From a virus: a DNA stretch of 64,000 nucleotides. The DNA lies in IMG/VR virus record IMGVR_UViG_3300046318_000165, positions 1 to 64,000 of that record; one strand, 5' to 3'. The position numbers were made by a program, and so were the translations under genes. Shown in pieces: positions 20,854 to 45,366 of this stretch (its first letter is position 1; each line of letters opens with the position of its first letter). The notes below the pieces were generated by a model that was not told where the DNA came from, did no database searches, and saw only the letters and a list, made by a program, of their open reading frames with translations.

Positions 20854-21894
20854 ATGAAAAACAAACTATCATTTGCAGTAGCCGTAGCTTTAGTATCAAC
20901 ACTAATTCTAGGAGTATCAGCAAATGCTGAGACTACTCAAATAACAGGACAAGGATCAAGTTTTGCAGGTAACATTATTACTACCTGTTCAACAACTTAT
21001 CCAGGTTCATCCGTAGCATATTCTGCTACAGGTTCAGGAACAGGCAGAACAGCTTTTTTAAATAATCTAAATGATTTTGTTGCAAGCGATGTTCCATATG
21101 GACAAGCTGATAAGCAACCAGCAGCAGATAGCTTTACATACATTCCAGTAATTGGTGGTGCAGTAGCATTCATTTACAACCTTCCATCAGCATATGGAAT
21201 TAAAGCTTTGAAGCTTACCTCAAAAGTAGCATCTAATATCTTTAATGGAACTATTACTAAGTGGAATGATGCAAGTATTGTAGCACTTAATCCAACAGCT
21301 AAACTACCAGCAAAAGATATCAAGGTATTTTATCGTGGATCTTCTTCTGGTACAACACAAAATGTTGCTAAGTATTTTATTGCTAATGGCAACACTACTT
21401 GGACTGACAATGGAGGATATTCAACAGCTATTGGAAAAGAAATTCCAGGAAACTTCAACTCTGCTGGAACATCAGCCTTGTTGGTAGATGGTGTAGATGA
21501 TACATCGTTCTCAATTGGGTATGTAGATCTATCTGACGCTGTTTCACGACAGGTTTCTTATGCACTTCTTAAGAATCAATATGGTCAGTTTATTAAGCCA
21601 TCCGTTACCTCAGCATCTTTGTTCTTAAAGGCTCAGACTGTTTCATCAAACGGTATTGTAAACATTAACTTCAAGGCAAAGGTAAAAGGTGGATACAATC
21701 TATCAATCATTACCTATGTATTAGCTTATACAGGTCCTGCACAAAAAGATGCTGTAAAGCAATCAAAGGTTAATGGTTTTGTTAAGTATATCCTAAAGTC
21801 TTGTGGACTTGCTAAAGGTTCAAAGCTAGGATATGTAGCACTGTCTGGCAAAGTTAAAGACAAGGCTCTTGCATTATCTGATAAAATTAAATAA
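20854..21894 (+). CDS. pstS: PstS-like phosphate-binding protein (auxiliary metabolic gene)
   Basis: 346 aa, RBS AAGGAG. Signal peptide 1-25 (AVAVALVSTLILGVSANA). TQITGQGSSFAGN, YSATGSGTGRTAF, DFVASDVPYG and FYRGSSSGTTQNVAKY are the phosphate-cradling loops of PstS. It captures phosphate for the host ABC transporter PstCAB; phages carry it to sustain DNA synthesis in phosphate-poor water. Terminator downstream. Confidence 0.9.
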   Translation: MKNKLSFAVAVALVSTLILGVSANAETTQITGQGSSFAGNIITTCSTTYPGSSVAYSATGSGTGRTAFLNNLNDFVASDVPYGQADKQPAADSFTYIPVIGGAVAFIYNLPSAYGIKALKLTSKVASNIFNGTITKWNDASIVALNPTAKLPAKDIKVFYRGSSSGTTQNVAKYFIANGNTTWTDNGGYSTAIGKEIPGNFNSAGTSALLVDGVDDTSFSIGYVDLSDAVSRQVSYALLKNQYGQFIKPSVTSASLFLKAQTVSSNGIVNINFKAKVKGGYNLSIITYVLAYTGPAQKDAVKQSKVNGFVKYILKSCGLAKGSKLGYVALSGKVKDKALALSDKIK

Positions 21895-31245: not shown

Positions 31246-31562
31246 GTTACCATATAGTCTATGATCCAGTTACAGGAAAAATTATTGAGCAATATGAACA
31301 GGATGAAGTGAAAGAGCTAGATCAGTCACAAACTTTATATGAATTGGGTATTATTCACGAACGTGAACGCATACTTAAACTTTGGAATGATTGGTGCGAT
31401 TATTATGCTACTGTAACCATTGAAGAATTGTCTAAATCGGTTGCTGATGGAGAATGGAATTCAGAAACTTCCAGAGAGTATTTTATTAACCTTGTCAATA
31501 ATAAAGTATTTATAACATCTGCTCAAACTGAGCAACTAGCAAATGACCTATTTGAGGAATAA
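31242..31562 (+). CDS. hypothetical protein, 106 aa
   Basis: ATGA overlap with the previous gene. Contains GIIHERERILKLWNDWC, again like the ERERIIKLLE segment of the series. Function unknown. Confidence 0.6.
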   Translation: MSYHIVYDPVTGKIIEQYEQDEVKELDQSQTLYELGIIHERERILKLWNDWCDYYATVTIEELSKSVADGEWNSETSREYFINLVNNKVFITSAQTEQLANDLFEE

Positions 31563-31564
31563 TA

Positions 31565-31972
31565 ATGACTCCACTAGAAGAAGAAATAGTTAAACTAACA
31601 AATATCTGGATGCGTTTTGTAGGACAAGATCATCACAAGGATAGAGATGTGCACTGGTATGTCCAACAATATTTTTCTTATGGAGAAGCACCTTATTTCC
31701 AGGCATGGCATCATGGGTATATTGCTAATGATTTCGAGGGTACAAAGTGTACAACTCTTGAAGAAGCACAAGAAGAACTAAGAGATACACTCCTAGTAGA
31801 AATACACAAGGCTAAGATATGGGTTGGTCGTAATCTAGAAGAAATTAAAAAGCTAGAAGAAAGTGATAGTCAAGAACCTTTCTTTGGCAGCTCAGAAGAA
31901 TATAAAAGAATGCTTTGGGCTTTGAATGGAGAGTTTGAAAAACTTTCGGGGAATTTAAATGAAGCTTTGTAA
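31565..31972 (+). CDS. hypothetical protein, 135 aa
   Basis: Starts 2 nt after the previous stop. His-rich first half (GQDHHKDRDVHWYVQQYF) and helical second half. No family recognised. Confidence 0.62.
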   Translation: MTPLEEEIVKLTNIWMRFVGQDHHKDRDVHWYVQQYFSYGEAPYFQAWHHGYIANDFEGTKCTTLEEAQEELRDTLLVEIHKAKIWVGRNLEEIKKLEESDSQEPFFGSSEEYKRMLWALNGEFEKLSGNLNEAL

Positions 31973-32006
31973 TCCCTAGTATAAACAACTAATAGAAAGA
32001 ATACCT

Positions 32007-32126
32007 ATGTCAATAGATGATTTTAAATATATCCTATTTCCAGATAGGAAGTATGTCATTGGTGTTAATATAGAGGTTAGTGGACAAGACCTGATAACAG
32101 CTTATCTGGCATATACGAAAGACTAA
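32007..32126 (+). CDS. small protein, 39 aa
   Basis: MSIDDFKYILFPDRKYVIGVN..., preceded by a weak AGAAAGAA. Last plus-strand gene before the origin-like block. Confidence 0.42.
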   Translation: MSIDDFKYILFPDRKYVIGVNIEVSGQDLITAYLAYTKD

Positions 32127-32850
32127 ATACCCTGGACTTATCCACAAGTTATACACAGGTTTATTCACAGATAGATCTTACTGATAATAGTTTTTAATAA
32201 GGATAAGAGAGATTTGAGATGTTTATATGTGTAATAATACACCATATCATAACCCATTCGTAATGTCAAGCATTTTATTCCCATCTTAACCAAATTGTTA
32301 TCATATATTTTTATGCACAAAATCCCTGATTTATCCACATATTTCTATATTTATTGAGAATAATTATCAATAATAATATAAAAACATATAGAAACTATAA
32401 CAAAAACCCCATTTTCCTTATAAAAAGAATAGTTCTTTATAACCCTATAGTGTATTTGCTTATAGTTATACTAGGAACTAAGAATAATACCATATCAAAA
32501 ACCAGGGAAAAATAAAGCTCTATCGTAATGTATTATTACCATAGGTATTTTATATACTAGGGAGATTTGATACTACTTCGTAATACCCCTTCATAAAATC
32601 GGGGTATAGATAATCATTCATCGTAATATCCCTAGTATAAGATACAATAGTTACATAGGGAGATATACTACTTCTTGGGGATATATTTGTTATATCGTAA
32701 TACCTGGCAAAATAAACAAGGATCGTAATCTATTTAAATGAATAAACTTTCTGGGAAATTTTGATCGCTATCGTAATAATGTTTAATAGGATTTGCTACA
32801 GGTGGGTCGGGCACTGCCCCCCTCCGCAATGGAGGGAGACAGTTATCCTA
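32127..32850. other. gene-free AT-rich block: candidate replication origin
   Basis: 724 nt without a credible ORF between convergent gene sets. It contains five perfect DnaA boxes TTATNCACA in one orientation: 32138-32146, 32149-32157, 32161-32169, 32311-32319 and 32331-32339. A very AT-rich stretch (about 32340-32480) follows and could serve as the unwinding element. At least seven copies of (A/T)TCGTAAT lie between 32265 and 32780. The left end holds the GC-rich terminator of the leftward operon. Confidence 0.6.
32800..32836 (-). terminator. GC-rich hairpin ending the leftward operon
   Basis: CCTCC-GCAAT-GGAGG stem beside GGTCGGGC, directly after the stop of the gene at 32851. No long T tract. 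Confidence 0.5.
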
Positions 32851-33129
32851 TTATGCTTCTTCTGCTGTTCCTAGTATCTCATCAAGATTATCAAATCCTG
32901 TATCAGTAACTTCAAGACCAGCGAGTAGCAACTCAAAAGTTTCCTCAATAAAACTTTCTGCTATTGGAGTTGGCTCTACAATCTTATTATCAAGGGCATA
33001 GGCTAGTGGCAATCCCAAATCATTGTATTCTAGGAAATCAGCAAACTCTTCGTCATTACGATAGTTTAGCCAAAGGTCAGCAAGAATACTTACCTTATTA
33101 GAAAAGGGGGTGGTGGTTGGCTCTGTCAT
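32851..33129 (-). CDS. acidic protein, 92 aa
   Basis: Pro/Thr-rich start then acidic helices (EEFADFLEYNDLG...). Overlaps the upstream gene by 32 nt. Function unknown; it belongs to the leftward small-gene region. Confidence 0.6.
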   Translation of the reverse strand: MTEPTTTPFSNKVSILADLWLNYRNDEEFADFLEYNDLGLPLAYALDNKIVEPTPIAESFIEETFELLLAGLEVTDTGFDNLDEILGTAEEA

Positions 33130-33307
33130 TCATTACTTCTTTCTCGTATTCTGCTGAACTAATAACAATGTCTAAACGGCGATAACTTACATTTGGTAAT
33201 GACCTTGCTAAGTATCGCCCTACTAAGTCAAGGTCTATTGTTACATTGGATAAAAGGTCTGATAACTTCTTGGCAATCTTTTCTTCTTCCGTTATTCTAT
33301 GTCGCAT
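33098..33307 (-). CDS. hypothetical protein, 69 aa
   Basis: First gene behind the promoter/operator at 33333-33357. Charged N-terminal helix (RHRITEEEKIAKKLSDLL). No family recognised. Confidence 0.6.
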   Translation of the reverse strand: MRHRITEEEKIAKKLSDLLSNVTIDLDLVGRYLARSLPNVSYRRLDIVISSAEYEKEVMNDRANHHPLF

Positions 33308-33332
33308 TGGTTACTCCTATTCAGTTGTATGT

Positions 33333-33357
33333 CTATTCTAGCATTACCCTCCGACAA
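33333..33357 (-). promoter_or_regulatory. promoter with degenerate operator
   Basis: Minus strand ATTTGTCGGAGGGT then TAGAAT, a divergent copy of the ATGTCGGTGGTA element. Confidence 0.5.
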
Positions 33358-33366
33358 ATACAACCC

Positions 33367-33750
33367 CTAGAACAAAGTATTTATCCAACGGTAGTCGTCT
33401 ATATCTTCTGGGACCGAATCAACATGCGGTAGTGAATCAAGAAGAGCTTTTACCCTATCAGGAATAGTCTTAGCAATGTTACGGAATGAGTCCAGGGTTA
33501 TAAAGAAATCATCTCCCCATTCCTTTTCAGGAAAGTCTGGTGCAAGCATCCTAGTCTCTGCTAGGGTTAGAGTAAAAGATTCAAGATAGGACCTTGTTGA
33601 TACCCATTCTCCGTCTACCCTATACACTGAAGGCTGGATAGTAAAGACATCTGCCCATTCATTCTCACCAGTCTCTTCATTAGTGCCTAGGTCCCTATAG
33701 AAAACGTTGAGGTCATACTCTTTTTCAATCTGATCGGTTTTAGTTGTCAT
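33367..33750 (-). CDS. hypothetical protein, 127 aa
   Basis: Start at ATG 33750 (GGAGAG upstream, overlapping the upstream stop region), not the longer in-frame start at 33783. Mixed alpha/beta, acidic. Last gene of the operon starting at 35156. Confidence 0.62.
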   Translation of the reverse strand: MTTKTDQIEKEYDLNVFYRDLGTNEETGENEWADVFTIQPSVYRVDGEWVSTRSYLESFTLTLAETRMLAPDFPEKEWGDDFFITLDSFRNIAKTIPDRVKALLDSLPHVDSVPEDIDDYRWINTLF

Positions 33751-33925
33751 ACCACTTCTCTCCTTCGTGTTCTTCACATTCACAACAGTTTACGCAATAC
33801 CCCTCATCATAGGGGCAAGCAAATGTATCCATAATCCATTCGCCCTCATGGGTATACTCTTTACCACAATCAAGACAAATAATATTATTTAGTATGTCAG
33901 CCAACAATCTTTGCGTCCTCTCCAT
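33740..33925 (-). CDS. zinc-finger protein, 61 aa
   Basis: Cys-rich: CLDCGKEYTHEG and CPYDEGYCVNCCECEEHEG. The ATG start at 33925 overlaps the upstream gene; a TTG nearer the upstream stop is an alternative. Probably binds zinc. Confidence 0.58.
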   Translation of the reverse strand: MERTQRLLADILNNIICLDCGKEYTHEGEWIMDTFACPYDEGYCVNCCECEEHEGEKWYDN

Positions 33926-34325
33926 AAAATGCTTTTAGGTCTTCTACAGTGTCAATGGGGATATGGATATAGCCCTCACGCTCTTCACACTCATTACAGT
34001 ATACAGGGTTGTCCCAGTCAAAGTCAAGAGTTTCTAGGCAATCACATTGACGCTCTGCCCAAGTAGGGACTTCAATGTCTTCTTCCCAAGGAACATTGGT
34101 AATATAGTAATGAATACGATTGACATAGTGATAACCAGAAACAATGTAACTTCCCTCATCACCGTCTACTTCAGTCCAAATGTTATGCTCATCCTGTAGT
34201 TTGACATACTCCTTTTCGTCACCGTATGTTTCGTAGGGTAGTTCAAGACCATTACTTTGATTCCTAAGATAATTAGGCATAGGCTGAAACTTCTCAACCC
34301 AAGCGTCATAAGTATAAATAGTCAT
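33897..34325 (-). CDS. hypothetical protein with CxxC pair, 142 aa
   Basis: Aromatic/acidic protein (MTIYTYDAWVEKFQP...) with CDCLE and CNECEE in the C-terminal third. Translationally coupled to both neighbours. Confidence 0.62.
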   Translation of the reverse strand: MTIYTYDAWVEKFQPMPNYLRNQSNGLELPYETYGDEKEYVKLQDEHNIWTEVDGDEGSYIVSGYHYVNRIHYYITNVPWEEDIEVPTWAERQCDCLETLDFDWDNPVYCNECEEREGYIHIPIDTVEDLKAFYGEDAKIVG

Positions 34326-34489
34326 TAGTTATTTTCCAATCCTGCTACACCATAGGGGTCAATGTGTTCTTGTAACTTATTATAAATAGCGTTGATAAAG
34401 ATGTCATTATCTCTATAAGTTATTTCGGCAAGGTAGCCATTCAAAACTTCTAACTCAATTTCTGTTAGTTCAATAGTATAAGTATTCAT
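34325..34489 (-). CDS. small acidic protein, 54 aa
   Basis: TAATG overlaps at both ends. MNTYTIELTEIELEVLNGYL..., helical. Function unknown. Confidence 0.6.
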   Translation of the reverse strand: MNTYTIELTEIELEVLNGYLAEITYRDNDIFINAIYNKLQEHIDPYGVAGLENN

Positions 34490-34632
34490 TATCCCTCGCT
34501 AACTTCAACATAACAATCACTAATGATACTATCGGCAATATCTTCTACATCATAGTCCTCACCAAAATCGGCATAGAACTCAATGTAGTGACCAGTTGGT
34601 GAATGAACAATAGTTATCTTCTTTTCCATCAT
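34489..34632 (-). CDS. small acidic protein, 47 aa
   Basis: Starts with two Met codons behind AGGAGT; TAATG overlap downstream. Predicted beta then helix (KKITIVHSPTGHYIEFYADFG). Function unknown. Confidence 0.58.
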   Translation of the reverse strand: MMEKKITIVHSPTGHYIEFYADFGEDYDVEDIADSIISDCYVEVSEG

Positions 34633-34637
34633 TACTC

Positions 34638-35156
34638 CTAAAAGTGGAAATCAACAGGGACAAGATACCAGTCTACACCCTCAGTGGGTAGTTTGTCAAG
34701 CATATGCTTAGTATTGGTAGAAGAATGTTCAGCGTCAAAATACTTTGAATTGAAATCCCAGTTACCCTGTAGCATATCAATTGCTTTACTCAGGGGGTAT
34801 AGGTCAAAAGAATAATCAATATTTCCAGTATATATATCTAACTTATCTTTGATAGAATCAAAATCAATACGACTAACATAATTCTTGAACTCATTTAGTC
34901 TAGACTCAATACACGAATCAATTTTCGCAGCAAATATTTCAGGGTCTTTAGCATAAGAGATAATCATATTAGAAGAAGAACTATAAGGGTCTTGCTCTGG
35001 GTTCCAACGACCGCCACCGATAACAAACCAATCATACCAAGATGAACCTGGGTTTAGTTCGTTATTTAGAAAACTCTCAACATACTCCATTGCTTCCTGC
35101 TCTGGGTCGTCTAGTCCGTCTTCTACCTTTATAGCAATCCATTGTAAAGTGTGCAT
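34638..35156 (-). CDS. hypothetical protein, 172 aa
   Basis: Start at ATG 35156 (RBS AAAGGAAA); the longer in-frame ORF to 35201 would translate the operator itself (MSVVG...). First gene of a six-gene operon. Contains SSWYDWFVIGGGRWNPEQDP, reminiscent of phage proteins of unknown function with a WxxGGRW motif. Confidence 0.65.
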   Translation of the reverse strand: MHTLQWIAIKVEDGLDDPEQEAMEYVESFLNNELNPGSSWYDWFVIGGGRWNPEQDPYSSSSNMIISYAKDPEIFAAKIDSCIESRLNEFKNYVSRIDFDSIKDKLDIYTGNIDYSFDLYPLSKAIDMLQGNWDFNSKYFDAEHSSTNTKHMLDKLPTEGVDWYLVPVDFHF

Positions 35157-35178
35157 TTGATTTCCTTTCGATGTTTCA

Positions 35179-35202
35179 AGTATACTGCCTACCACCGACA
35201 TT
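35179..35202 (-). promoter_or_regulatory. promoter with ATGTCGGTGGTA operator
   Basis: Minus strand: AATGTCGGTGGTA (35202-35190), then TATACT (35184-35179). Leader of about 20 nt with RBS AAAGGAA before the ATG at 35156. Confidence 0.75.
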
Positions 35203-35283
35203 CGTAAAACCTGGGAAAAAGCTGATCTATCGTAATTCTTTATTTGTGACTAATTATATTATGTAAGATAGGTCGGGCTTTCC

Positions 35284-35448
35284 CTACTCCTCCATTCTTT
35301 TCAAACTTGCTTTCAAAATCCCTAGCACGATTCTTGACGGTATCAAAGGCAAATCCTCATTCTTCAAAAACCCATCAATCATTCCATCAACTAGACTAAT
35401 AGCATTGTCATAGCCCATAGTGTAGGACTTCAATTCATCATTGGTCAT
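35284..35448 (-). CDS. hypothetical protein, 54 aa
   Basis: Start at ATG 35448, which overlaps the upstream TGA (ATGA). Helical; contains YTMGYDNAISLVDGMIDGFL. Last of a ten-gene micro-operon from 36603. Confidence 0.58.
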   Translation of the reverse strand: MTNDELKSYTMGYDNAISLVDGMIDGFLKNEDLPLIPSRIVLGILKASLKRMEE

Positions 35449-35555
35449 TTCTTTGCTCCCAAGCAACCCATACAGAAAAACTTTAGTAATGCGTCAGCAG
35501 GGTTAGTGCTGGTAGTCTCACATTTGTCACACTTGTAAATAGTTTCTTTATTCAT
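35445..35555 (-). CDS. zinc-ribbon micro-protein, 36 aa
   Basis: CDKC and CMGC pairs in 36 residues; chain of overlapping starts and stops. Function unknown. Confidence 0.55.
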   Translation of the reverse strand: MNKETIYKCDKCETTSTNPADALLKFFCMGCLGAKK

Positions 35556-35715
35556 TATCTTCCACCTCAAAATCCCATTGTGCGTTAGTTTCAAAATCTT
35601 CAAAGTCCTCAGCAATAAAGTCGTTTATCAACTCCAGAGCCTTTTCTCTACTCTCTGCCTCAACAGGGACTTCATAGTATTTCATTAGTTTTGCTTGAAC
35701 AAGATACTTATTCAT
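35548..35715 (-). CDS. small acidic protein, 55 aa
   Basis: MNKYLVQAKLMKYYEVPVEAESREKALELINDFI... resembles the 35829 gene product (MSKYFITTTVEYYFEVEADSEAEAEE): both are strand-strand-helix micro-proteins, probably paralogues of a ferredoxin-like half fold. Confidence 0.6.
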   Translation of the reverse strand: MNKYLVQAKLMKYYEVPVEAESREKALELINDFIAEDFEDFETNAQWDFEVEDNE

Positions 35716-35836
35716 CTTCTAGTTCCATTCCTGCTACTTCATACTCTTCCCAGAGATTTACGATTACTTCATTATCAATCTTTTCCAACTCACCCATCAG
35801 TGACCAGAACAGGGTTTGCCAGTTAGTATCATTCAT
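35708..35836 (-). CDS. small acidic protein, 42 aa
   Basis: Helical, MNDTNWQTLFWSLMGELEKIDNE...; coupled to neighbours by 8-nt overlaps. Confidence 0.52.
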   Translation of the reverse strand: MNDTNWQTLFWSLMGELEKIDNEVIVNLWEEYEVAGMELEDE

Positions 35837-35996
35837 CTTCTTCATCTTCCTCTAGGGCTTCAACCTCAATAGAATCAACTTCAGCAGTGTATGGATAGTT
35901 TTCATAGAGCCAGCCCATTTCCTCTGCTTCGGCTTCGCTGTCTGCCTCAACTTCAAAATAGTATTCAACAGTGGTAGTAATAAAATACTTACTCAT
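35829..35996 (-). CDS. small very acidic protein, 55 aa
   Basis: Beta hairpin then acidic tail (EALEEDEEDE). A DNA-mimic role is conceivable for such acidity but is speculation. Probable paralogue of 35548. Confidence 0.58.
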   Translation of the reverse strand: MSKYFITTTVEYYFEVEADSEAEAEEMGWLYENYPYTAEVDSIEVEALEEDEEDE

Positions 35997-36096
35997 TGAC
36001 CATAACCTTTCTTAGTTCATCATCACTTAGTCTATTTATTGTATCAAGACCCTCCGACATTATCAGGTCCAAAAGCCTACGGTATTCTTCAATCAT
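35989..36096 (-). CDS. micro-protein, 35 aa
   Basis: MIEEYRRLLDLIMSEGLDTI..., two amphipathic helices. Coupled on both sides. Confidence 0.5.
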   Translation of the reverse strand: MIEEYRRLLDLIMSEGLDTINRLSDDELRKVMVNE

Positions 36097-36098
36097 TA

Positions 36099-36248
36099 CT
36101 AACCGTGCTTTCTATAATAAGCATCGCAGGAAGACTTCTTGTGACCAATCTTTTTGGCGGAAGACTTCCAAACCCTTCCACATTCACGACAAGCATAAAT
36201 GTCATACTCTTCACCCTTGTGCTTACGCACCTCAACATTTCGTTCCAT
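36099..36248 (-). CDS. basic zinc-binding protein, 49 aa
   Basis: YACRECGRVW plus a later SSCDAYYRKHG: C2 plus C/H pattern, Lys/Arg-rich. Possibly nucleic-acid binding. Confidence 0.58.
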   Translation of the reverse strand: MERNVEVRKHKGEEYDIYACRECGRVWKSSAKKIGHKKSSCDAYYRKHG

Positions 36249-36463
36249 TAGTCCTCCTCTGAGTAGTAAAGTTCTAGTGGCACACCAATCATTCCTGCTA
36301 CTGATTGATAAGCAGAAATAAGACCACTAAGATAATCGTGGAAACCATCCAAATCATTTTCATCATAACCTTTCAACTCTTCTTGATAGCCAGTGATTCT
36401 ATCAACCAAGGCGGTAGCAAGAGATGTCATTGATACATAATCAGCATTAGGGTCAAGATTCAT
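36248..36463 (-). CDS. hypothetical acidic protein, 71 aa
   Basis: MNLDPNADYVSMTSLATALVDRITGYQEEL..., helical. TAATG-type overlaps at both ends. Confidence 0.58.
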   Translation of the reverse strand: MNLDPNADYVSMTSLATALVDRITGYQEELKGYDENDLDGFHDYLSGLISAYQSVAGMIGVPLELYYSEED

Positions 36464-36603
36464 TAGTTAGACTCTCCAAAGTATTCTATCCATAGGTCAG
36501 TATCCATAATGCCCTCACCATAAACCTCTTCAAGAGATTCTAGAGCATACTTGACACCATCAGTAAACGCTTCACCAATGGCTTCTTCATAAGTCTTTGA
36601 CAT
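36463..36603 (-). CDS. small acidic protein, 46 aa
   Basis: First gene of the ten-gene micro-operon, behind RBS GAAAGGAAAG and the operator promoter at 36628-36652. Function unknown. Confidence 0.58.
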   Translation of the reverse strand: MSKTYEEAIGEAFTDGVKYALESLEEVYGEGIMDTDLWIEYFGESN

Positions 36604-36627
36604 TGCTTTCCTTTCGTTGATGTATTT

Positions 36628-36652
36628 AGTTTACACCCTACCACCGACATTT
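36628..36652 (-). promoter_or_regulatory. promoter with ATGTCGGTGGTA operator
   Basis: Minus strand TTGTAA (-35), AATGTCGGTGGTA inside the spacer, TAAACT (-10). Confidence 0.72.
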
Positions 36653-36785
36653 ACAAGGAAAACCTGGGAAAAAATAGATCTATCATAATAGTTGTAAGTA
36701 GTTTAAATATACTATTTTGCTACAGCTGCCCGACCTGCCCCTGCCCCATATTCCGTTATTGGAATACAGGGCAAGGACTAATGGC

Positions 36786-37808
36786 TTACGCCATTGCCAC
36801 TTGCTGAACAATCTTTAGCAGACGGTTCTTCTCAGCGTTTACCATTGGGTCAAAGCCTGAAGCCGAAGCCAAGATAGACTCGTTGCTTCCGCCTCGTGAG
36901 TTACGATACCAGTCCAAACGCTCAGTTAGACCATTCAACGCACCCCAAGCAGTGCCAGCAATCATGCCATTCTGCTGTCCATTGTAAATGCTGTGAATCA
37001 AGTCAATCTTGCCGTCATGCTTTTTGAATGAACCCTTAGCGTCTTTTTCTGGGGCAGGATAAGCAAGGTTGATGATTTCCTCAAACTGCTTTTGAGTAAT
37101 AGTCTTTTCAATCATAGCCTTTGCCATAAGGTCAAACTCATCCATGTAAGCATTAGCCAATCCAAGAGCCTCACGAGCAACCGAAATCTTGCCCTCAGCA
37201 GTCTGAGTGTGGCGAATCTTGAAAGACTGCTTCGGTGCTTTGCCCTTACCCTTTAGAGCAGACAGAGCCAAGTTTAGGGTATTGGCACAGACAACACGAA
37301 CAGGGGTAATGCTTGCCTGAATAGCAACAGAACCGTCATGGCTAGTATTGATTAGCAAATAAGTCTTTACCTTATCAGACACGCCATTAGGGTCAAGGAT
37401 AGTTTCACGCTCTAGTGCTAGGCTACCAAATACTTGTCTACCACCCTTGATAGAGCCAGCAGTTTCCCAACGACCGCCGCCGTCTAGGATGTTGTCACCA
37501 AAGGCGAACAAGTCCTCATTTTGTAGAACCTTGTAACGCTCACCAACAACGCCTAGGACATCATTCTGGGTAGCGTCAAAAGGATTAGTGCGAGTAACAA
37601 AAGAATAAGTCTTGTCAGAAGCAAAAGTTTCTGGAATGGCAACATCTTCCAAGCGAACATTCCACTTGTCAAGGTGTGCTAACTCTAGCATTTTAGCGGT
37701 AGTTACTTCCTCAGTGAATACAGTGCCAAGACCATGCCAAGCAGGTTCACGCAAAGAAGCAAAAGTTGCTTCGCCAGTAGTTTGGTTGATTTCTAGTTCG
37801 TGAGCCAT
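36786..37808 (-). CDS. DUF932-family phage/plasmid-like protein
   Basis: 340 aa from ATG 37808; the longer frame to 37871 would cross the operator. MAHELEINQTTGEATFASLREPAWHGLG and the later RVVCANTLNLAL...SFKIRHT match the DUF932 (TIGR03299-like) family found in phages and plasmids. Function of the family is not established. It is the largest gene of the leftward region and stands alone behind its promoter. Confidence 0.82.
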   Translation of the reverse strand: MAHELEINQTTGEATFASLREPAWHGLGTVFTEEVTTAKMLELAHLDKWNVRLEDVAIPETFASDKTYSFVTRTNPFDATQNDVLGVVGERYKVLQNEDLFAFGDNILDGGGRWETAGSIKGGRQVFGSLALERETILDPNGVSDKVKTYLLINTSHDGSVAIQASITPVRVVCANTLNLALSALKGKGKAPKQSFKIRHTQTAEGKISVAREALGLANAYMDEFDLMAKAMIEKTITQKQFEEIINLAYPAPEKDAKGSFKKHDGKIDLIHSIYNGQQNGMIAGTAWGALNGLTERLDWYRNSRGGSNESILASASGFDPMVNAEKNRLLKIVQQVAMA

Positions 37809-37848
37809 GATACCCAACTTTCTTATTAGTGATTTATTTGATAAGATA

Positions 37849-37878
37849 AGTATACAGTCTACCACCGACATTTGTCAA
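37849..37878 (-). promoter_or_regulatory. promoter with operator and consensus -35
   Basis: Minus strand TTGACA (37878-37873), AATGTCGGTGGTA filling the 18-nt spacer, TATACT (37854-37849). The clearest copy, showing that the repeated element is a spacer-embedded operator rather than the -35 box. Confidence 0.8.
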
Positions 37879-37944
37879 GTTATTTAGTCTAGAATCTGGA
37901 GAATTTTTGACTAATCGTAAAGAGATCCCCTAGAAAGCTCGCAG

Positions 37945-37975
37945 ACCGCCCGACCCCTGAAAGGGAGCCTTTTCA
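37945..37975 (-). terminator. GC-rich hairpin with GGTCGGGC
   Basis: CCCT-TTC-AGGG stem followed by GTCGGGCGG, between the stop at 38024 and the next operator promoter. Lacks a T tract. Confidence 0.45.
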
Positions 37976-38023
37976 CGTCATGCTCAGGACGTATGCAGAC
38001 TTGCTGCATGTTTTCATAGCCCC

Positions 38024-38518
38024 CTATGAAACTTCAGTAACAGAATAGATTTCCTCAACCCAACCATCTTGGATATATTCGTAGCCACTAACCGAAATAT
38101 CAAGGTCACTCTCAAGTTCACTGGACATATCATCAATGGTCTTTCCAAACGGAATAGTAACATTAGTACGAATAATAATACTGAAATCAACAATAGCCTC
38201 AGTATTCAAATCAATGTCAAGGTTGTTAGCAATAGTAACGATAGTGTCATTATCAGTATCAGCAAACTCAGCAGTCTCAACAAGAACATTCTTTACTCGC
38301 TCAATGTAGTCAGTATAGCGTCTGTTAGCATTGCTAACCAACTCTGACTTTGCGGAAAGTTCTACTCGCTTGACTTGTAGTTCATCGTTCAATGACTCAA
38401 TGGTTAGTTCAAGTTCAGCAATCTTATTCTTGAACTGCTGTAGGACAGGATGCTGGCTCTCTGCCAGAGCCTGATTGATAACATCGTTGTTTGGTCTAGT
38501 AAATACTACTTCATCCAT
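38024..38518 (-). CDS. coiled-coil protein, 164 aa
   Basis: Start at ATG 38518. Long coiled coil (QFKNKIAELELTIESLNDELQVKRVEL...), then a beta-rich C-terminus. Single gene behind operator promoter 38547-38570. Confidence 0.65.
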   Translation of the reverse strand: MDEVVFTRPNNDVINQALAESQHPVLQQFKNKIAELELTIESLNDELQVKRVELSAKSELVSNANRRYTDYIERVKNVLVETAEFADTDNDTIVTIANNLDIDLNTEAIVDFSIIIRTNVTIPFGKTIDDMSSELESDLDISVSGYEYIQDGWVEEIYSVTEVS

Positions 38519-38546
38519 TTGGGGCTTCTTTCTCTTGATTAGTTCT

Positions 38547-38570
38547 ATTATAAATGGGACCACCGACATT
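38547..38570 (-). promoter_or_regulatory. promoter with ATGTCGGTGGT operator
   Basis: Minus strand AAATGTCGGTGGT then TATAAT (38552-38547). Confidence 0.7.
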
Positions 38571-38719
38571 TAGAATCCGAAGATAGAATCCAAGTCGTGA
38601 GTATGGATAGATTTAGTTGTATCGGTTTTTCCACATTTGGGGCAGGGTGGTGAAACTTCTCCTGGTTTTAGGGCAAACACAATCTTAGCGTGTTCTAATA
38701 GTCTTTGTTCCATAGTCAT
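38570..38719 (-). CDS. zinc-ribbon protein, 49 aa
   Basis: CPKCGKTDTTKSIHTHD, one CxxC plus histidines. The stop codon overlaps the operator of the next unit. Coupled to the 65-aa gene upstream. Confidence 0.55.
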   Translation of the reverse strand: MTMEQRLLEHAKIVFALKPGEVSPPCPKCGKTDTTKSIHTHDLDSIFGF

Positions 38720-38916
38720 TAGCCGTCCCATTCGGAAGTGTCTTGTCCGTTCAATACGGCTAGGGCATAGGGATACTTGCTGTTATCTCCAAGGGAATCA
38801 AGAATGTCAATCTGTTCCTCAGTAAAACTACTAAAGTTAGTAATGATAATGTCACTACCACCATAAGAACCGTCTTCGGTAATCCATAGAACGCCACTTA
38901 GTTGGTCATACGCCAT
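38719..38916 (-). CDS. hypothetical protein, 65 aa
   Basis: RBS AAAGAGGAAA. Acidic, MAYDQLSGVLWITEDGSYGG...; no family recognised. Confidence 0.62.
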   Translation of the reverse strand: MAYDQLSGVLWITEDGSYGGSDIIITNFSSFTEEQIDILDSLGDNSKYPYALAVLNGQDTSEWDG

Positions 38917-38942
38917 TAGTTTCCTCTTTCTTTGTTATTACT

Positions 38943-38966
38943 ATTGTAGGGCATACCACCGACATT
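38943..38966 (-). promoter_or_regulatory. promoter with ATGTCGGTGGTA operator
   Basis: Minus strand AATGTCGGTGGTA then TACAAT (38948-38943). Confidence 0.68.
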
Positions 38967-39041
38967 CTGGAAAAAGTTTATGAGTTTTATAATGTCTATC
39001 GTAAACGGATCCTGGGGCAGGTGTAGTGCCCGACCCCAGCC

Positions 39042-39076
39042 AGAAGAAAACCCCCATCTCGTCAGACAGGGGTTCT
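39042..39076 (-). terminator. intrinsic terminator
   Basis: Minus strand AACCCC...GGGGGTT stem followed by TTTTCTTC. It ends the 39175-39615 unit; a TAGGC/GCCTA hairpin lies before it at 39157-39170. Confidence 0.75.
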
Positions 39077-39174
39077 TGATAGTTTTATTATCAACTAACA
39101 ACTTCATCACCAGACTTTGGTGCTTGTGAGCAGTTTAGAACCCATACTCAGGGGTTTAGGCGTGAGCCTATGGT

Positions 39175-39615
39175 TTATAGCAAGTCCATTACTGAACTGT
39201 AAGTGGAAGCGTTGATTTCTTCCTGCTGAGTCATTTTGAGAACAGCAAGGTTCTTCTTGAGCAAGTCAAGACGGTTAGCGTGTTCACGACCAAGCCAAAC
39301 CTTGTCGTTTGGGTTCTCTGGCTTTACAGGCTCTTCTGGCAGGGTAATCAAAGACTTGTCAATGGTTAGTTGGACATCACCACGATACGAAGTGCCAACA
39401 GACAAAGCATCATTGTCATTTAGCAAAGCAGGGTCAGAGTTGATAGCATCAACAGCAATACGAAGAATGTTCTCCTTGTAAGCCTTGTATGCTTCCTTGT
39501 ATGTCTTTAGGTCAGCAGGGTATGAAGCAATCTTTACCTCAATCTCAGCAATCTTACCCTCAATAAGAGCAATAACGCTTGCGGTTGGAACTTTTACGGA
39601 TAGAGAACGAGCCAT
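39175..39615 (-). CDS. helical protein, 146 aa
   Basis: MARSLSVKVPTASVIALIEGKIAEIEVKIASYPADLKTYKEAY...; strongly helical, two-helix hairpin then a beta segment. Single gene behind operator promoter 39646-39670. No family recognised. Confidence 0.65.
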   Translation of the reverse strand: MARSLSVKVPTASVIALIEGKIAEIEVKIASYPADLKTYKEAYKAYKENILRIAVDAINSDPALLNDNDALSVGTSYRGDVQLTIDKSLITLPEEPVKPENPNDKVWLGREHANRLDLLKKNLAVLKMTQQEEINASTYSSVMDLL

Positions 39616-39645
39616 TTTATTTTCCTTTGTTTGGATTATACATTT

Positions 39646-39670
39646 ATTATACAGGGGGCTACCGACATTT
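39646..39670 (-). promoter_or_regulatory. promoter with operator
   Basis: Minus strand AAATGTCGGTAG then TATAAT (39651-39646). Confidence 0.7.
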
Positions 39671-39732
39671 ATACTCCGAAGAGTGAGCAGTTATTTTTGC
39701 TAGTCATACTCAGGACTACCCCATAAAGGGAC

Positions 39733-39885
39733 TTACTTGACGGTTGTCCAGCGGTCAGAACCGTTCACCGAAAGGCGGACACGATACGAGCCAGACTTGT
39801 TAGCGATTACTTCCTGAACCGTTCCAACAACGCCAGACTTCTGAGTTGCGAACTGTGAGCCAACAGTAGGGATTGAAATAGCCAT
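39733..39885 (-). CDS. small SH3-like protein, 50 aa
   Basis: Start at ATG 39885 (RBS AAAGGAAG). Predicted beta barrel: GSQFATQKSGVVGTVQEVI...YRVRLSVNGSDRWTTV. Similar in layout to KOW/Tudor domains. Confidence 0.6.
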   Translation of the reverse strand: MAISIPTVGSQFATQKSGVVGTVQEVIANKSGSYRVRLSVNGSDRWTTVK

Positions 39886-39934
39886 TATTGCTTCCTTTGT
39901 TTGTATTTTTAGTATCAACTTTTGCTGATACTCT

Positions 39935-40041
39935 ATTATAGCATTAGGGTCAGACATTTGTCAAGTCCATTTGGAAACTTTTTTATTTTTTATTTTCTGC
40001 TCTTTTGCTATGTTTCTATTATAGAGCATACCTCCGACATT
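39935..40041 (-). promoter_or_regulatory. tandem promoters, one with operator
   Basis: Proximal: TTGACA, ATGTCTGACC (degenerate operator), TATAAT (39940-39935). Distal: AAATGTCGGAGGT then TATAAT (40023-40018). The only clear tandem pair. Confidence 0.6.
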
Positions 40042-40136
40042 TACAAGGGTTTCAGGAAAAAAGATCCAGGGTTTTTAATGTCTATCGTAAATAAGCTGGG
40101 AGGGAGAGGAGCCGCCCGACCCCCTTTCGGGGTAGC

Positions 40137-40856
40137 CTACTTTTTACTAGCACTAAATAGAATGTCATTGCGATTGAATACACACTGAGAACATAGGACA
40201 CAAGCAGAACCAGATTGGCTAATCATCTTTATCTTTTTGTTGTTTTCGGGGCAGGGAATAGCAGACTTAGACTGTAACTTTTCAAAGTCAGCCTTGCCAG
40301 TAGCAAAGTCCTTAGCAAGATAGGCTAACTTCACGCCATACTCTTGTTTTAGACTGATAGCCAAATCCTTGTTGGCTTCATCGGCACTAAAGTATAGGCT
40401 AAGGTTATCCATACCGATAAGGATAGGGACAGCAAAGTCTGAGCGAGTGTATGCCCAAAACTGAACCTTTGGGAACATACGAATAACCTTTTTCCACGCT
40501 AGAGTGTATTCCTCACTAAAGAAGTCACCGTCCCAGTGAATACGGAACAACTTTTCTGCCCCACGCTTTTCACATTCTTTTTCAAAACTTTCAATCATTT
40601 CTGATAACAAGTAAACCATTTCCAAAGCATTAGAACAAGCCTGTAGTTGCTCCCAGTTGGATAGCAGAACAGTCTTTACGCCCTTGAATACCTTTTCAAG
40701 TTTGCCAGCGTAGCAAATAGTTTCACACACGCTAGTAGCCCCAGGACAAGAGAACGCTTTACCACTAGGCAAGCCAAAAGTGTTAGCCATACTTGCCTGA
40801 TTACCACCAGCGTTTACTTGATTAGCAACTTTGCGGTCTTTTGAACGAATAAGCAT
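40137..40856 (-). CDS. Cys-rich phage protein, Gp88/DUF7227-like
   Basis: 239 aa from ATG 40856. FSCPGATSVCETICYAG has three cysteines, and the C-terminus has a second cluster (CPENN..., CVLCSQC). The centre IHWDGDFFSEEY...VQFWAYTRS looks like a TIM-barrel segment. The whole resembles radical-SAM-like proteins and actinophage Gp88-type proteins of unknown function; an Fe-S cluster is likely but unproven. Confidence 0.65.
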   Translation of the reverse strand: MLIRSKDRKVANQVNAGGNQASMANTFGLPSGKAFSCPGATSVCETICYAGKLEKVFKGVKTVLLSNWEQLQACSNALEMVYLLSEMIESFEKECEKRGAEKLFRIHWDGDFFSEEYTLAWKKVIRMFPKVQFWAYTRSDFAVPILIGMDNLSLYFSADEANKDLAISLKQEYGVKLAYLAKDFATGKADFEKLQSKSAIPCPENNKKIKMISQSGSACVLCSQCVFNRNDILFSASKK

Positions 40857-40881
40857 TTTAGTCCTTTTGTTTGATAAGTCT

Positions 40882-40905
40882 ATTTTACACCCTACCACCG
40901 ACATT
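40882..40905 (-). promoter_or_regulatory. promoter with ATGTCGGTGGTA operator
   Basis: Minus strand AATGTCGGTGGTA then TAAAAT (40887-40882). Confidence 0.68.
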
Positions 40906-40974
40906 CTTAAAGGTTATCGTAAATAGATTCGGATCCCCAACAGCTGCCCGACCCCCAGGGGCAGAGCCTAAGCC

Positions 40975-41304
40975 CTACTCCCAATGCTGTGTTACAAAAT
41001 CCCTAAACGAATAAGTTATGTCACCAAACTCAACGGTATTGGTTTCAAAGTCAATCACCATTGGCTCATACGATTCTTCAAACTCATTCTTAGCACTAAT
41101 GCCAAATCCAGTTTCCTCATACCAACTATCTCCAATAATACTACTAATGAAGATACGCATTCCATAGGTTGTATCATTCCAGCGTGGCTCTGCTTTGAAT
41201 AGAGCAGTTACAGCGTCTTCCAACTTCCTATCTCCACCCCAATGTGAATAAAGAAAAATACTTCCGCTACGGTCTTTGACTTCAAATACTGTTCTTGCTC
41301 CCAT
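40975..41304 (-). CDS. hypothetical protein, 109 aa
   Basis: MGARTVFEVKDRSGSIFLYSHWGGDRKLEDAV..., mixed alpha/beta; similar short proteins occur in phages as unknowns. Single gene behind promoter 41331-41355. Confidence 0.62.
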   Translation of the reverse strand: MGARTVFEVKDRSGSIFLYSHWGGDRKLEDAVTALFKAEPRWNDTTYGMRIFISSIIGDSWYEETGFGISAKNEFEESYEPMVIDFETNTVEFGDITYSFRDFVTQHWE

Positions 41305-41330
41305 TTAGTCCTGCTTTCTTTGTTACTACT

Positions 41331-41355
41331 ATTATAGACTGACCCACCGACATTT
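41331..41355 (-). promoter_or_regulatory. promoter with ATGTCGGTGGG operator
   Basis: Minus strand AAATGTCGGTGGG then TATAAT (41336-41331). Confidence 0.7.
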
Positions 41356-41581
41356 ACACGTCTTTGCTAAAGAACGCAACATCGTTTTCGTCATTTGGCT
41401 CAGTGATTATTTCAACACAGATTCCGACAGGCGATTCGCAATCTTCATTTTCACAATGCAAACGGTAGTCAGCAACCAATCCAGTACTGTAGTCAGTATA
41501 CTTAGCAATAACAACTTTGTGTCCAAAGTGCTCTGCAAGTGACTCTAGGAAATAAGTATCTCCTGATTTTACTTTACTCAT
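41354..41581 (-). CDS. hypothetical protein, 75 aa
   Basis: Contains a HCENEDCESPVGICVE cysteine group. Its stop codon touches the operator of the next unit. No family recognised. Confidence 0.58.
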   Translation of the reverse strand: MSKVKSGDTYFLESLAEHFGHKVVIAKYTDYSTGLVADYRLHCENEDCESPVGICVEIITEPNDENDVAFFSKDV

Positions 41582-41607
41582 TATTCTGTCCTTTGTTTGA
41601 TAATACT

Positions 41608-41632
41608 ATTATAAACTGAACCACCGACATTT
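41608..41632 (-). promoter_or_regulatory. promoter with ATGTCGGTGGT operator
   Basis: Minus strand AAATGTCGGTGGT then TATAAT (41613-41608). Confidence 0.7.
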
Positions 41633-41762
41633 AGAGAAATTCAAAAGGGTCACGGTCTTGGAATATGTCTTCAAAATCAGAAAAGGAATATAGCTCTGGG
41701 TTAGCGTTAAATTCTTCTAGGGCTTGTTTGATTTCTTCTGCTTGTTCATCGATTTTATTCAT
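41631..41762 (-). CDS. small acidic protein, 43 aa
   Basis: MNKIDEQAEEIKQALEEFNANPELY..., helical. The ATG is about 6 nt after the TATAAT of promoter 41769-41792, so it is leaderless; the stop touches the next operator. Confidence 0.52.
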   Translation of the reverse strand: MNKIDEQAEEIKQALEEFNANPELYSFSDFEDIFQDRDPFEFL

Positions 41763-41768
41763 ATTTAT

Positions 41769-41792
41769 ATTATAAGTGATACCACCGACATT
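41769..41792 (-). promoter_or_regulatory. leaderless promoter with ATGTCGGTGGTA operator
   Basis: Minus strand AAATGTCGGTGGTA then TATAAT (41774-41769), then ATG at 41762. Confidence 0.7.
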
Positions 41793-41869
41793 TAGGAATG
41801 GGGAAAGCTTTATCGTAACGTAAAGTTGGATCCTGGAGCAGCTAGGGGGGTCGGGCGATCGCCCTGCCC

Positions 41870-42013
41870 CTATCCCATAGCCATAAATAAACTAACTAAG
41901 AATGCTGAGATAGCGATTATCACAAAAACAAACGGTATACCAGACATTAGAGCAATCATTGCCAGAGTAAAAAGAATACCAACGCTAACAGCACGACCAA
42001 TAAAATCAATCAC
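41870..42013 (-). CDS. membrane protein, 47 aa
   Basis: GTG start overlapping the upstream TGA. Two hydrophobic segments (VGILFTLAMIALMSGIPFV and FVIIAISAFLVSLFMAM). Function unknown. Confidence 0.55.
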   Translation of the reverse strand: MIDFIGRAVSVGILFTLAMIALMSGIPFVFVIIAISAFLVSLFMAMG

Positions 42014-42123
42014 TTATCCAACTCTCTTTTTATCTTTTCCATAGCACCAACGATAAGACCAATGCCCATTACTGCCATAGCCAACGGTATTAGAATAACT
42101 ATACCAATAAGAATAATCTCCAT
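42010..42123 (-). CDS. membrane protein, 37 aa
   Basis: Single hydrophobic helix (IILIGIVILIPLAMAVMGIG) and a basic tail. Coupled to both neighbours. Confidence 0.55.
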   Translation of the reverse strand: MEIILIGIVILIPLAMAVMGIGLIVGAMEKIKRELDK

Positions 42124-42347
42124 TAGAGAATACAACCCCAATCTCCAGCATCACGAAATGCTCGCTCAATGTCCATCTCAGCCATCTCGCCCTTGTAGTA
42201 TTTTGTCTTGCCGTTTAGTTTGACTTTGTAGTAGCCAAAAATGTTTAGGGCAGACCATACCGTTCCAATGTCGCTAGAGTAAGACTCACTCCACTCGCTA
42301 ACATCAGAAACCTTTGTTTGTCTTGTAACATAACCTAAGTGGCTCAT
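42123..42347 (-). CDS. hypothetical protein, 74 aa
   Basis: MSHLGYVTRQTKVSDVSEWSESYSS..., contains LNIFGYYKVKLNGKTKYYKG (beta). No family recognised. Confidence 0.6.
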   Translation of the reverse strand: MSHLGYVTRQTKVSDVSEWSESYSSDIGTVWSALNIFGYYKVKLNGKTKYYKGEMAEMDIERAFRDAGDWGCIL

Positions 42348-42460
42348 AGACTTTCCTCCTCATACTGGCACTGGCAGGGAATAACACGAATAGAGTTATC
42401 CATTCTCGCCTCAACGAAAGCATAACCCTTACACACAGAACAAAAATACTCTTGAATCAT
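42344..42460 (-). CDS. zinc-binding micro-protein, 38 aa
   Basis: CSVCKGYAFVEARMDN...CQCQ: two cysteine pairs. Starts behind operator promoter near 42484-42508. Confidence 0.55.
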   Translation of the reverse strand: MIQEYFCSVCKGYAFVEARMDNSIRVIPCQCQYEEESL

Positions 42461-42621
42461 TAGTTGCCTTTCTTGTTACTTACACTATACACTAGACCAC
42501 CGACAATTACAGTTTCAAAACTATACAAGTCTTCATCGTGGCTTGGGCAGATAGCAAAATAGCCTTTAGAAACATTCTCATAGACTACTGGCGTTTCGCA
42601 ACGCTTACATACTCTTGTCAT
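42460..42621 (-). CDS. zinc-ribbon protein whose C-terminus encodes the operator
   Basis: 53 aa with CKRCETPVV and AICPSH. The frame stays open through the promoter/operator at 42484-42508 and stops by TAATG overlap with the next gene, so the operator DNA is translated as VIVGGLVYS. Unusual because the other operators lie outside genes. Confidence 0.5.
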   Translation of the reverse strand: MTRVCKRCETPVVYENVSKGYFAICPSHDEDLYSFETVIVGGLVYSVSNKKGN

Positions 42622-42791
42622 TAGTAACTTTCTTGAATGGCTTTACGGTTATTGGTTGCTCTTGTTCCCTTGCGGTTATCAGGGATAACAACGGTATGCT
42701 TTGCTTTTAGCATAGTCTGGAATAACGCTTGGGCTTCTGCCTTGCGTCTTGCTTCGTTTGCCTTGTGTAGTGGCTTAGTTCTTTTCTTCAT
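42621..42791 (-). CDS. basic protein, 56 aa
   Basis: ATG 42791 directly behind TATAAT (42803-42798) of an operator promoter: leaderless. Lys/Arg-rich (KKRTKPLHKANEARRKAEAQ), so likely nucleic-acid binding. Confidence 0.6.
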   Translation of the reverse strand: MKKRTKPLHKANEARRKAEAQALFQTMLKAKHTVVIPDNRKGTRATNNRKAIQESY

Positions 42792-42797
42792 AGTTTT

Positions 42798-42821
42798 ATT
42801 ATACACCACCCTACCGACATT
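42798..42821 (-). promoter_or_regulatory. leaderless promoter with operator
   Basis: Minus strand AATGTCGGTAG then TATAAT (42803-42798), 6 nt, ATG. Confidence 0.7.
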
Positions 42822-42894
42822 CTGGGAAATGGGGATCTTTCACTTAATCGTAAATTGATCTTGGATCAGCGAAGCTGCCCGCCCCCCGAAGGGT

Positions 42895-43011
42895 CTAGAA
42901 CGGTGGTTTCAGTTCTTCGACCCAACGGCGGTATTGGTCTAGCATATATGCCTGATATAGAATGTATCCAGCCAAAGCAACATAACCAATAGCAACAATA
43001 AACCAAATCAT
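42895..43011 (-). CDS. membrane micro-protein ending in PPF, 38 aa
   Basis: ATG 43011 behind AAAGGAACAG. Hydrophobic helix (MIWFIVAIGYVALAGYILY) and the end RRWVEELKPPF. A similar membrane protein ending KPPF is encoded at 45415. Confidence 0.52.
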   Translation of the reverse strand: MIWFIVAIGYVALAGYILYQAYMLDQYRRWVEELKPPF

Positions 43012-43028
43012 TTTCTGTTCCTTTTCTT

Positions 43029-43088
43029 CTACTGTCTTACTAAAATAATAATAACCACTGCCATAGCAAGAATAAAAATCCAAGTCAT
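43029..43088 (-). CDS. 19-aa membrane micro-protein
   Basis: MTWIFILAMAVVIIILVRQ. Same length and pattern as ORFs at 45519 and 46903; each lies next to another small membrane gene. Confidence 0.42.
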   Translation of the reverse strand: MTWIFILAMAVVIIILVRQ

Positions 43089-43089
43089 T

Positions 43090-43278
43090 TTATTCACCCC
43101 AGCAAGCGTTATCAAAACGGTCTGAGTCAAAACGCTCATTATCGTTTTCAAACATTTCAGCAAAGTCTGCCACTAGCAAACCAAAAATGTCTTCGCCCTC
43201 TTGACCAAGTGAAACGATACTTTCACGAACATCAGAGAGAATCTTAGCAGTCTGAACATAGTCCTTGCGTGTCATCAT
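43090..43278 (-). CDS. small acidic protein, 62 aa
   Basis: MMTRKDYVQTAKILSDVRESIVS..., with the phage-typical FAEMFENDNERFDSDRF segment. Function unknown. Confidence 0.62.
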   Translation of the reverse strand: MMTRKDYVQTAKILSDVRESIVSLGQEGEDIFGLLVADFAEMFENDNERFDSDRFDNACWGE

Positions 43279-43436
43279 TAGTTGTCCACCTCTTGTTTTG
43301 AAAGATAGGTTAGTAGAGTGTTTAGGTCTTCGTCAGTTGCTCTTGAGGACAAGAAGCCCCAAGCCCAAGCATAGGCTTCACCGCTAGAGTAACCCCTTTC
43401 CTTTAGGGTTTCGATTATTTCGTTTTGCTTTCGCAT
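43278..43436 (-). CDS. small protein, 52 aa
   Basis: MRKQNEIIETLKERGYSSGEAYAWAWGFL..., helical. First gene behind operator promoter 43461-43485; four-gene unit. Confidence 0.58.
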   Translation of the reverse strand: MRKQNEIIETLKERGYSSGEAYAWAWGFLSSRATDEDLNTLLTYLSKQEVDN

Positions 43437-43460
43437 AGTTTTCCTTTCGTTGATAGTTCT

Positions 43461-43485
43461 ATTATAGGGGATACCACCGACATTT
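43461..43485 (-). promoter_or_regulatory. promoter with ATGTCGGTGGTA operator
   Basis: Minus strand AAATGTCGGTGGTA then TATAAT (43466-43461). Confidence 0.72.
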
Positions 43486-43486
43486 A

Positions 43487-43660
43487 CTAAAGCTTAGTAG
43501 AACCCTTAGCCTTAGCCATTGAGATTAGCCATTCAAGTTCATTCTGAAACTGTGGAGTGATGTCATAGTCGCAACGCTCTGCAATAGCGATGTATTCGCT
43601 AATGGTCTTTTCGATGACGGTAAGGGGCTTAGTAGCGATGTCGATAACTGAGAAGTTCAT
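43487..43660 (-). CDS. small helical protein, 57 aa
   Basis: MNFSVIDIATKPLTVIEKTISEYIAIAERCDYDITPQFQNELEWLI... Paralogue of the 45945 product (VALAIQSDYNLTPKFERELMLL). Function unknown. Confidence 0.6.
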   Translation of the reverse strand: MNFSVIDIATKPLTVIEKTISEYIAIAERCDYDITPQFQNELEWLISMAKAKGSTKL

Positions 43661-43803
43661 TAGTATTACCTTTCTTTGTAACTACTATTATTTTAGCAGA
43701 CACCACCGACATTTTGGGGAAAAGATCAGGACATTTTTAATACGTTACGTAAATGTTATATGGATCACGATCGCAGCCCGACCCCTGGTTGGGGCGTGTC
43801 ACC

Positions 43804-43977: not shown

Positions 43978-44025
43978 AGCGTGTCCTTTCGTTGATAAAA
44001 TAAGTATACATTGAGCCACAGACAT

Positions 44026-44313: not shown

Positions 44314-44429
44314 TAGTTTGCCTTTCGTTGATAAGACAAGTATACATTACACCTATGACATTTACAAATTTGGGGAAAACTGGAGATCTATTTTAATATC
44401 GTAAATGAATTTGACAAAAGCTTGATCCT

Positions 44430-44458: not shown

Positions 44459-44460
44459 AA

Positions 44461-44856: not shown

Positions 44857-44907
44857 TTATTTCTCATTTCTTTTTAGTAGTTTTAGTTTATCAGTGACTA
44901 CCGACAT

Positions 44908-45364: not shown

Positions 45365-45366
45365 GA

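Follow-up and report, generated by a model that had tools for sequence, protein, structure and literature searches.

How does a phage that encodes its own DNA polymerase III alpha subunit (PolIII alpha) begin to copy its genome, and does it draw on the initiator DnaA of its host to do so? The question is raised by a noncoding block in the IMG/VR virus record IMGVR_UViG_3300046318_000165, of which positions 1 to 64,000 form the window analysed here (64,000 nt); the full record is 90.7 kb long and closes on itself through a 126-bp overlap, with PolIII alpha straddling the junction. A sequence-only reading of the window had proposed that five DnaA boxes in this block mark an origin at which the phage recruits host DnaA. 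We find that this phage and a large group of its relatives appear to carry a small copy of a bacterial start site and therefore probably borrow host DnaA to begin DNA copying. On balance, we favour the view that host DnaA opens the block (31973–32850) as an oriC-like origin, with a phage TCGTAAT-binding protein as probable helper.

Architecture of the noncoding block

The DnaA box TTATNCACA occurs five times in the block, at 32138, 32149, 32161, 32311 and 32331, always on the plus strand and with box-to-box steps of 11, 12, 150 and 20 bp, which agrees exactly with the positions, single orientation and 11/12/20 phasing given by the sequence-only reading. This five-box cluster is far beyond chance. 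Among 400 first-order Markov genomes of the same local composition (800 strands), the maximum was two same-strand boxes per 202 bp, and the window as a whole contains 12 TTATNCACA sites against 4.0 ± 2.0 in shuffles. The description of the block as gene-free and followed by very AT-rich DNA also holds: no open reading frame (ORF) of at least 60 amino acids was found in 31973–32850, where the sole possible gene noted is a 39-codon ORF (32007–32126), and GC content within the block falls to some of the lowest window values in the record, with 17% GC in the 100-bp window at 32341 (lower in 3 of 9,066 windows). Boxes might have been equally dense in other intergenic regions; additional pairs do occur at 45344/45356 (plus strand) and 48441/48464 (minus strand), none as dense as the cluster at 32138.

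The sequence-only reading overlooked an 8-bp spacer and a TTACTGATAAT motif directly after box 3, as well as seven copies of TCGTAAT. Box 3 (32161–32169) is followed after 8 bp by TTACT at 32178, and this motif reads as a run of DnaA-trios. The elements of the block are as follows.

31973–32850, no strand: whole noncoding block, no ORF of at least 60 amino acids
32138–32146, plus: DnaA box 1, TTATCCACA
32149–32157, plus: DnaA box 2, TTATACACA, −29 relative to TTACT, one of the modal box positions among relatives
32161–32169, plus: DnaA box 3, TTATTCACA, −17 relative to TTACT, the modal box position among relatives
32171–32470, no strand: candidate unwinding region rich in AT; its 300 bp have 24% GC, which ranks second lowest among 9,046 windows
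32178–32195, plus: DnaA-trio-like run TTA CTG ATA ATA GTT TTT, 8 bp past box 3; its TTACT is invariant in relatives and common to actinobacterial oriC
32198–32257, plus: region occupied in most relatives by GTGGAG repeats with a 10-bp period, degenerate in the studied phage
32258–32264, plus: first of the TCGTAAT elements, 80 bp downstream of TTACT
32311–32319, plus: DnaA box 4, TTATGCACA, within the AT-rich stretch
32331–32339, plus: DnaA box 5, TTATCCACA, within the AT-rich stretch
32505–32777, plus: TCGTAAT array, copies at 32523, 32578, 32621, 32695, 32723 and 32771

The GTGGAG repeats are possibly weak DnaA sites. A GGGAAA/GGCAAA element lies at a fixed distance before three of the six TCGTAAT copies of the array, which is a candidate site for a phage protein.

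Conservation of the module among relatives

At least 600 IMG/VR stretches code for a relative. Relatives reached through the terminase or neighbouring proteins have a common noncoding block with TTACT and TCGTAAT copies, and most also have DnaA boxes. To avoid selecting for boxes, we scanned IMG/VR with two box-free patterns and obtained 140 matches, 130 of them with a span of 83–92 bp; 100 were distinct and had enough flank. Two or more boxes lie within 200 bp upstream in 90 of these 100 blocks (mean 2.6), whereas other parts of these loci have 0.02 per 200 bp, an enrichment of roughly 130-fold, and in 82 of the 90 exactly 8 bp separate the end of the nearest box from TTACT. Five of the ten box-less blocks also lack the remaining module and look like chance pattern matches. 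The block consensus reads agTTATcCACA.gtTTATCCACAgATtaATCTTACTGATtATaTtaTTAgAcA..cTAgAAGTGGAGtgaa..., with a 10-bp period in its GTGG repeats; its positions 0–10 (95 blocks) and TCGTAAT were set by the search pattern, the boxes were not, and at the triplet centres +13 and +16, which are free of the pattern, T is found in 69% and 97% of the 95 relatives. Pairwise identity among 97 aligned blocks, which form 58 clusters at 70% identity, is 0.34–0.39 at −200 to −80 and 0.80–0.85 at −40 to +20. By this comparison, the box cluster is under strong constraint, and the conserved noncoding module spans a large and diverse group of relatives. The spacing is similarly restricted in ten members found without a pattern (the studied phage and relatives identified via neighbouring proteins or terminase), where the gap between box and TTACT is only 6 or 8 bp. 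The span from TTACT to TCGTAAT(C) is mostly 87–88 bp in relatives and 80 bp in the studied phage.

Most relatives have only two or three boxes, and in most the tandem boxes are at most 3 bp apart. High-affinity clusters of this kind, together with the extra pairs at 45344/45356 and 48441/48464, could instead act as a datA-like sponge, which would stop host initiation by titrating host DnaA or inactivating it. However, a sponge requires neither a fixed 8-bp distance to TTACT nor an adjoining AT-rich stretch, and two or three boxes per block is a small number for one; we consider this role very improbable.

TTACT is retained beside no perfect box in several relatives (G001, G005, G020/L093/L094 and L120–L123), and likewise in five blocks from the large set; DnaA boxes are thus dispensable within the family. 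Such relatives also keep TCGTAAT, and this persistence, like the seven TCGTAAT copies in the studied block, favours a composite origin in which a phage initiator on the array takes the lead and the boxes are accessory, as in plasmid origins of the P1 and pSC101 type. P1 oriR and the iteron origins of such plasmids combine DnaA boxes and AT-rich DNA with arrayed short repeats, all of which the phage block shares; it differs from them in its irregular array spacing and in that no Rep-type initiator was recognised. However, TCGTAAT also occurs upstream of several early genes, where it looks regulatory, no initiator gene was identified among the phage proteins scanned, and the boxes are as conserved, and as fixed in spacing, as an opening site should be. 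We regard a composite origin as unlikely, and yet as the main rival to an origin opened by host DnaA, ahead of an injection stop signal of the T5 type, titration of DnaA and transcription control, in that order.

Elements of the form TCGTAAA, TCGTAAT or TACGTAAA recur on the plus strand between 35202 and 46211, 10–85 bp upstream of leftward promoter-like elements; TCGTAAW is thus not specific to the origin, since it is also found upstream of leftward genes. The TTTACGAT elements of the Streptomyces phages Moab, Gilson and Faust resemble them. DnaA is also a transcription factor, and the proximity of TCGTAAW to several leftward promoter cores raises the alternative that DnaA and a phage regulator control early or antisense transcription from the block. 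Yet the promoter core TGTCGGTGG-N10-TATAAT was not found in the block, and its sigma-70-like sites (13 versus 8.0 ± 2.7 in shuffles) are in modest excess, which leaves a transcription control region a remote prospect. Consensus scans for promoters and terminators gave weak support for either as an explanation of the block, and we set that explanation aside.

Resemblance to bacterial origins

The published rule for the basal unwinding system of bacterial origins calls for a DnaA box, a spacer of 0–16 and at least three NAN triplets (PMC8287927). The phage block has an 8-bp spacer and six triplets, an agreement that alone says little in AT-rich DNA. Its boxes at 32138, 32149 and 32161 are also in tandem, separated by 2 and 3 bp and thus within the 3-bp limit for tandem boxes, and an AT-rich candidate unwinding region lies next to the trios. 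The block therefore shares with the oriC of Bacillus subtilis and many other bacteria (PMC8287927) tandem same-strand boxes 2–3 bp apart, a short spacer, consecutive NTN triplets (which read NAN on the trio strand) and an AT-rich flank. In contrast to bacterial oriC, it is borne by a phage, has no adjacent dnaA gene and continues into GTGGAG and TCGTAAT elements.

For comparison with potential host origins, we read 20 dnaA–dnaN regions directly, nearly all from low-GC genomes of the class Actinomycetes that measure 1.2–1.5 Mb and, judged by size and composition, are presumably Nanopelagicales. All but one of the 20 end in a box or near-box, a gap of usually 12–14 bp (6–8 bp in the phages) and then one of TTACTACTACTAC, TTACTACGACTAC or a close variant, and most have TATATA-like DNA after the trio motif. 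Aligned with one of these regions (L201), the phage window scores 22, while shuffles average 10.2 and none of 200 does as well; the alignment runs through box, trio and GGATAARAGAG. This direct reading replaced a broad scan of 394 actinobacterial genomes for TTATCCACA-N-TTACT, which gave nine scattered matches.

Similar modules exist in T5-like phages. In UTK0009, the arrangement is TTATACACA-GGTTATCC-TACTGTATAAATA, with tandem boxes 12 bp apart and a TACTG run 8 bp on. At 901–960 of L385, and also in L386 and L387, T5-like phages show a TACTG run and AT-rich DNA about 8 bp after their DnaA boxes. The T5 stop region has been described as having repeats, palindromes and DnaA boxes and has been proposed as an injection stop signal (PMC13250531). 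By analogy, boxes and repeats in the actinophage block might arrest incoming DNA once an initial early segment has entered, given that tandem boxes and TACTG runs of T5-like phages lie in the noncoding pre-early or terminal region and that the box cluster of phage Faust is about 7 kb from the right end of its record, among small genes. The T5-like module sits within or near the terminal repeat, with no TCGTAAT array seen. Against a stop signal, the block studied here is mid-record, and such a signal needs no trios beside its boxes, which DnaA-driven opening explains. We consider an injection stop signal improbable.

Replication genes, host and phage relatives

The phage encodes PolIII alpha, a DnaB-type helicase (DnaB_C), a primase (DnaG-type zinc ribbon/Toprim) and RecA, along with ThyX, a B12-dependent ribonucleotide reductase, WhiB, Hsp20 and ferritin-like proteins. 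A search for the Bac_DnaA domain in the phage and eight relatives gave no match; in the search for a phage initiator gene, many small proteins matched no family and many short ORFs lay outside the scans. The WhiB gene (12707–13000) belongs to a type regarded as an actinophage marker (PMC10202952) and thus points to an actinobacterial host. The phage is probably a lytic virus of freshwater actinobacteria, its host perhaps a low-GC group such as Nanopelagicales. An attempt to name the host through the PstS-like protein was abandoned, as genome contigs gave only distant matches, mainly in mycobacteria and Nocardia. The periplasmic phosphate-binding-like protein (PBP superfamily, 20854–21894) and the ferritin-like (Dps-type) protein (18760–19278) are possibly encoded by metabolic genes of host origin.

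The closest terminases, at about 54% identity, are those of Streptomyces phages of the Stanwilliamsviridae type, and no DNA similarity to known phages was found for 31500–33300. Three cultured Stanwilliamsviridae, Faust, Moab and Gilson, have TTATCCACA-GRT-TTATCCACA in noncoding gaps of 1.5–1.8 kb. They thus resemble the studied phage in that a long noncoding gap contains tandem TTATCCACA boxes at a 12-bp step, theirs with TTTACGAT elements nearby, but they infect Streptomyces and have no TTACT trio beside the last box. These cultured relatives make the DnaA part of the proposal testable now.

A model for origin opening by host DnaA

The claim that a phage with its own PolIII alpha nevertheless recruits host DnaA is well supported, though not proven, by the comparison, because the boxes are under strong constraint, their distance to the trios is fixed, and DnaE, DnaB and primase are present with no detectable DnaA. 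Read from the sequences, the anatomy of the block, its conservation and its likeness to actinobacterial oriC suggest an opening step that copies the bacterial basal unwinding system. We infer that host DnaA would bind the tandem boxes (32138–32169), load onto the adjoining trio strand from 32178 and melt the AT-rich stretch to the right, whereupon the phage DnaB-type helicase would be loaded and, with the phage primase and PolIII alpha, would take over. The TCGTAAT sites are probably bound by a phage-encoded protein that would assist the origin and also act upstream of early genes.

DnaA boxes on phages and oriC-type box–trio modules in bacteria are already known. Among titles and abstracts retrieved with a few sets of terms, subscription papers not included, we found no description of trios in a phage; a few sets of terms likewise returned nothing on DnaA boxes in Streptomyces phages, actinophages or T5-like phages, or on dependence on host DnaA, and the literature does include one Pseudomonas phage for which DnaA boxes form part of an Ori-Finder prediction. 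If the model is correct, even lytic phages that encode a helicase, primase and polymerase of their own depend on the host initiator, the start of phage replication is tied to the growth state of the host, and nature offers a conserved set of compact modules of DnaA boxes and trios for studying DNA opening by DnaA. More speculatively, and with less confidence than in the model for this block, a mostly uncultured group of lytic actinophages may start replication through a mimic of host oriC and continue with the rest of its own replisome, and the likeness to box–trio modules in T5-like phages of enterobacteria may mean that large lytic phages recurrently use opening by DnaA as their way into replication.

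Gene orientation and GC skew

The sequence-only reading had placed the boxes at a switch between rightward and leftward gene sets and suggested GC skew as a check. Such a switch is real in this phage, and the two gene sets meet at the block convergently; in 30 of 38 relatives, however, genes on both sides of the block run leftward, and we discarded the orientation switch as a defining feature. With convergent genes, the skew switch at the block is a cumulative maximum, not the minimum typical of an origin. Indeed, cumulative GC skew peaks at 32 kb, and the GC3 skew of plus-strand genes is +0.10 to the left of the block versus −0.09 at 49–77 kb, the reverse of what a bidirectional origin at 32 kb would give. 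A skew change thus exists at the site with the opposite sign to that of an origin; because skew follows gene strand, its sign is only weak evidence, and we dropped skew as support for the origin. The divergent gene junction near the skew minimum (48441–48960) has a pair of reverse DnaA boxes along with CTAT repeats and a very AT-rich stretch; an origin or a genome end could also be sought there.

Neighbouring repeats and regulatory elements

About 24 copies of a leftward promoter-like element, AAATGTCGGTGG-N10-TATAAT, precede small genes on the minus strand between 33348 and 46137; a conserved block near −30 replaces TTGACA, an arrangement reminiscent of T4 middle promoters. A search of Rfam over 31900–49200 gave no match, including for a hairpin-forming 27-nt repeat, GCCCGACCACGCTTTCGGGCGTGTCGC, present in five plus-strand copies (43776–46882) in leftward intergenic regions. 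LexA-type boxes, TCGAACAAATTTTCGA at 46225 and TCGAATGTTTGTTCGA at 46836, occupy the position taken by the DnaA box pair at 45344/45356, and each precedes a GCCCGACC..GGGC hairpin.
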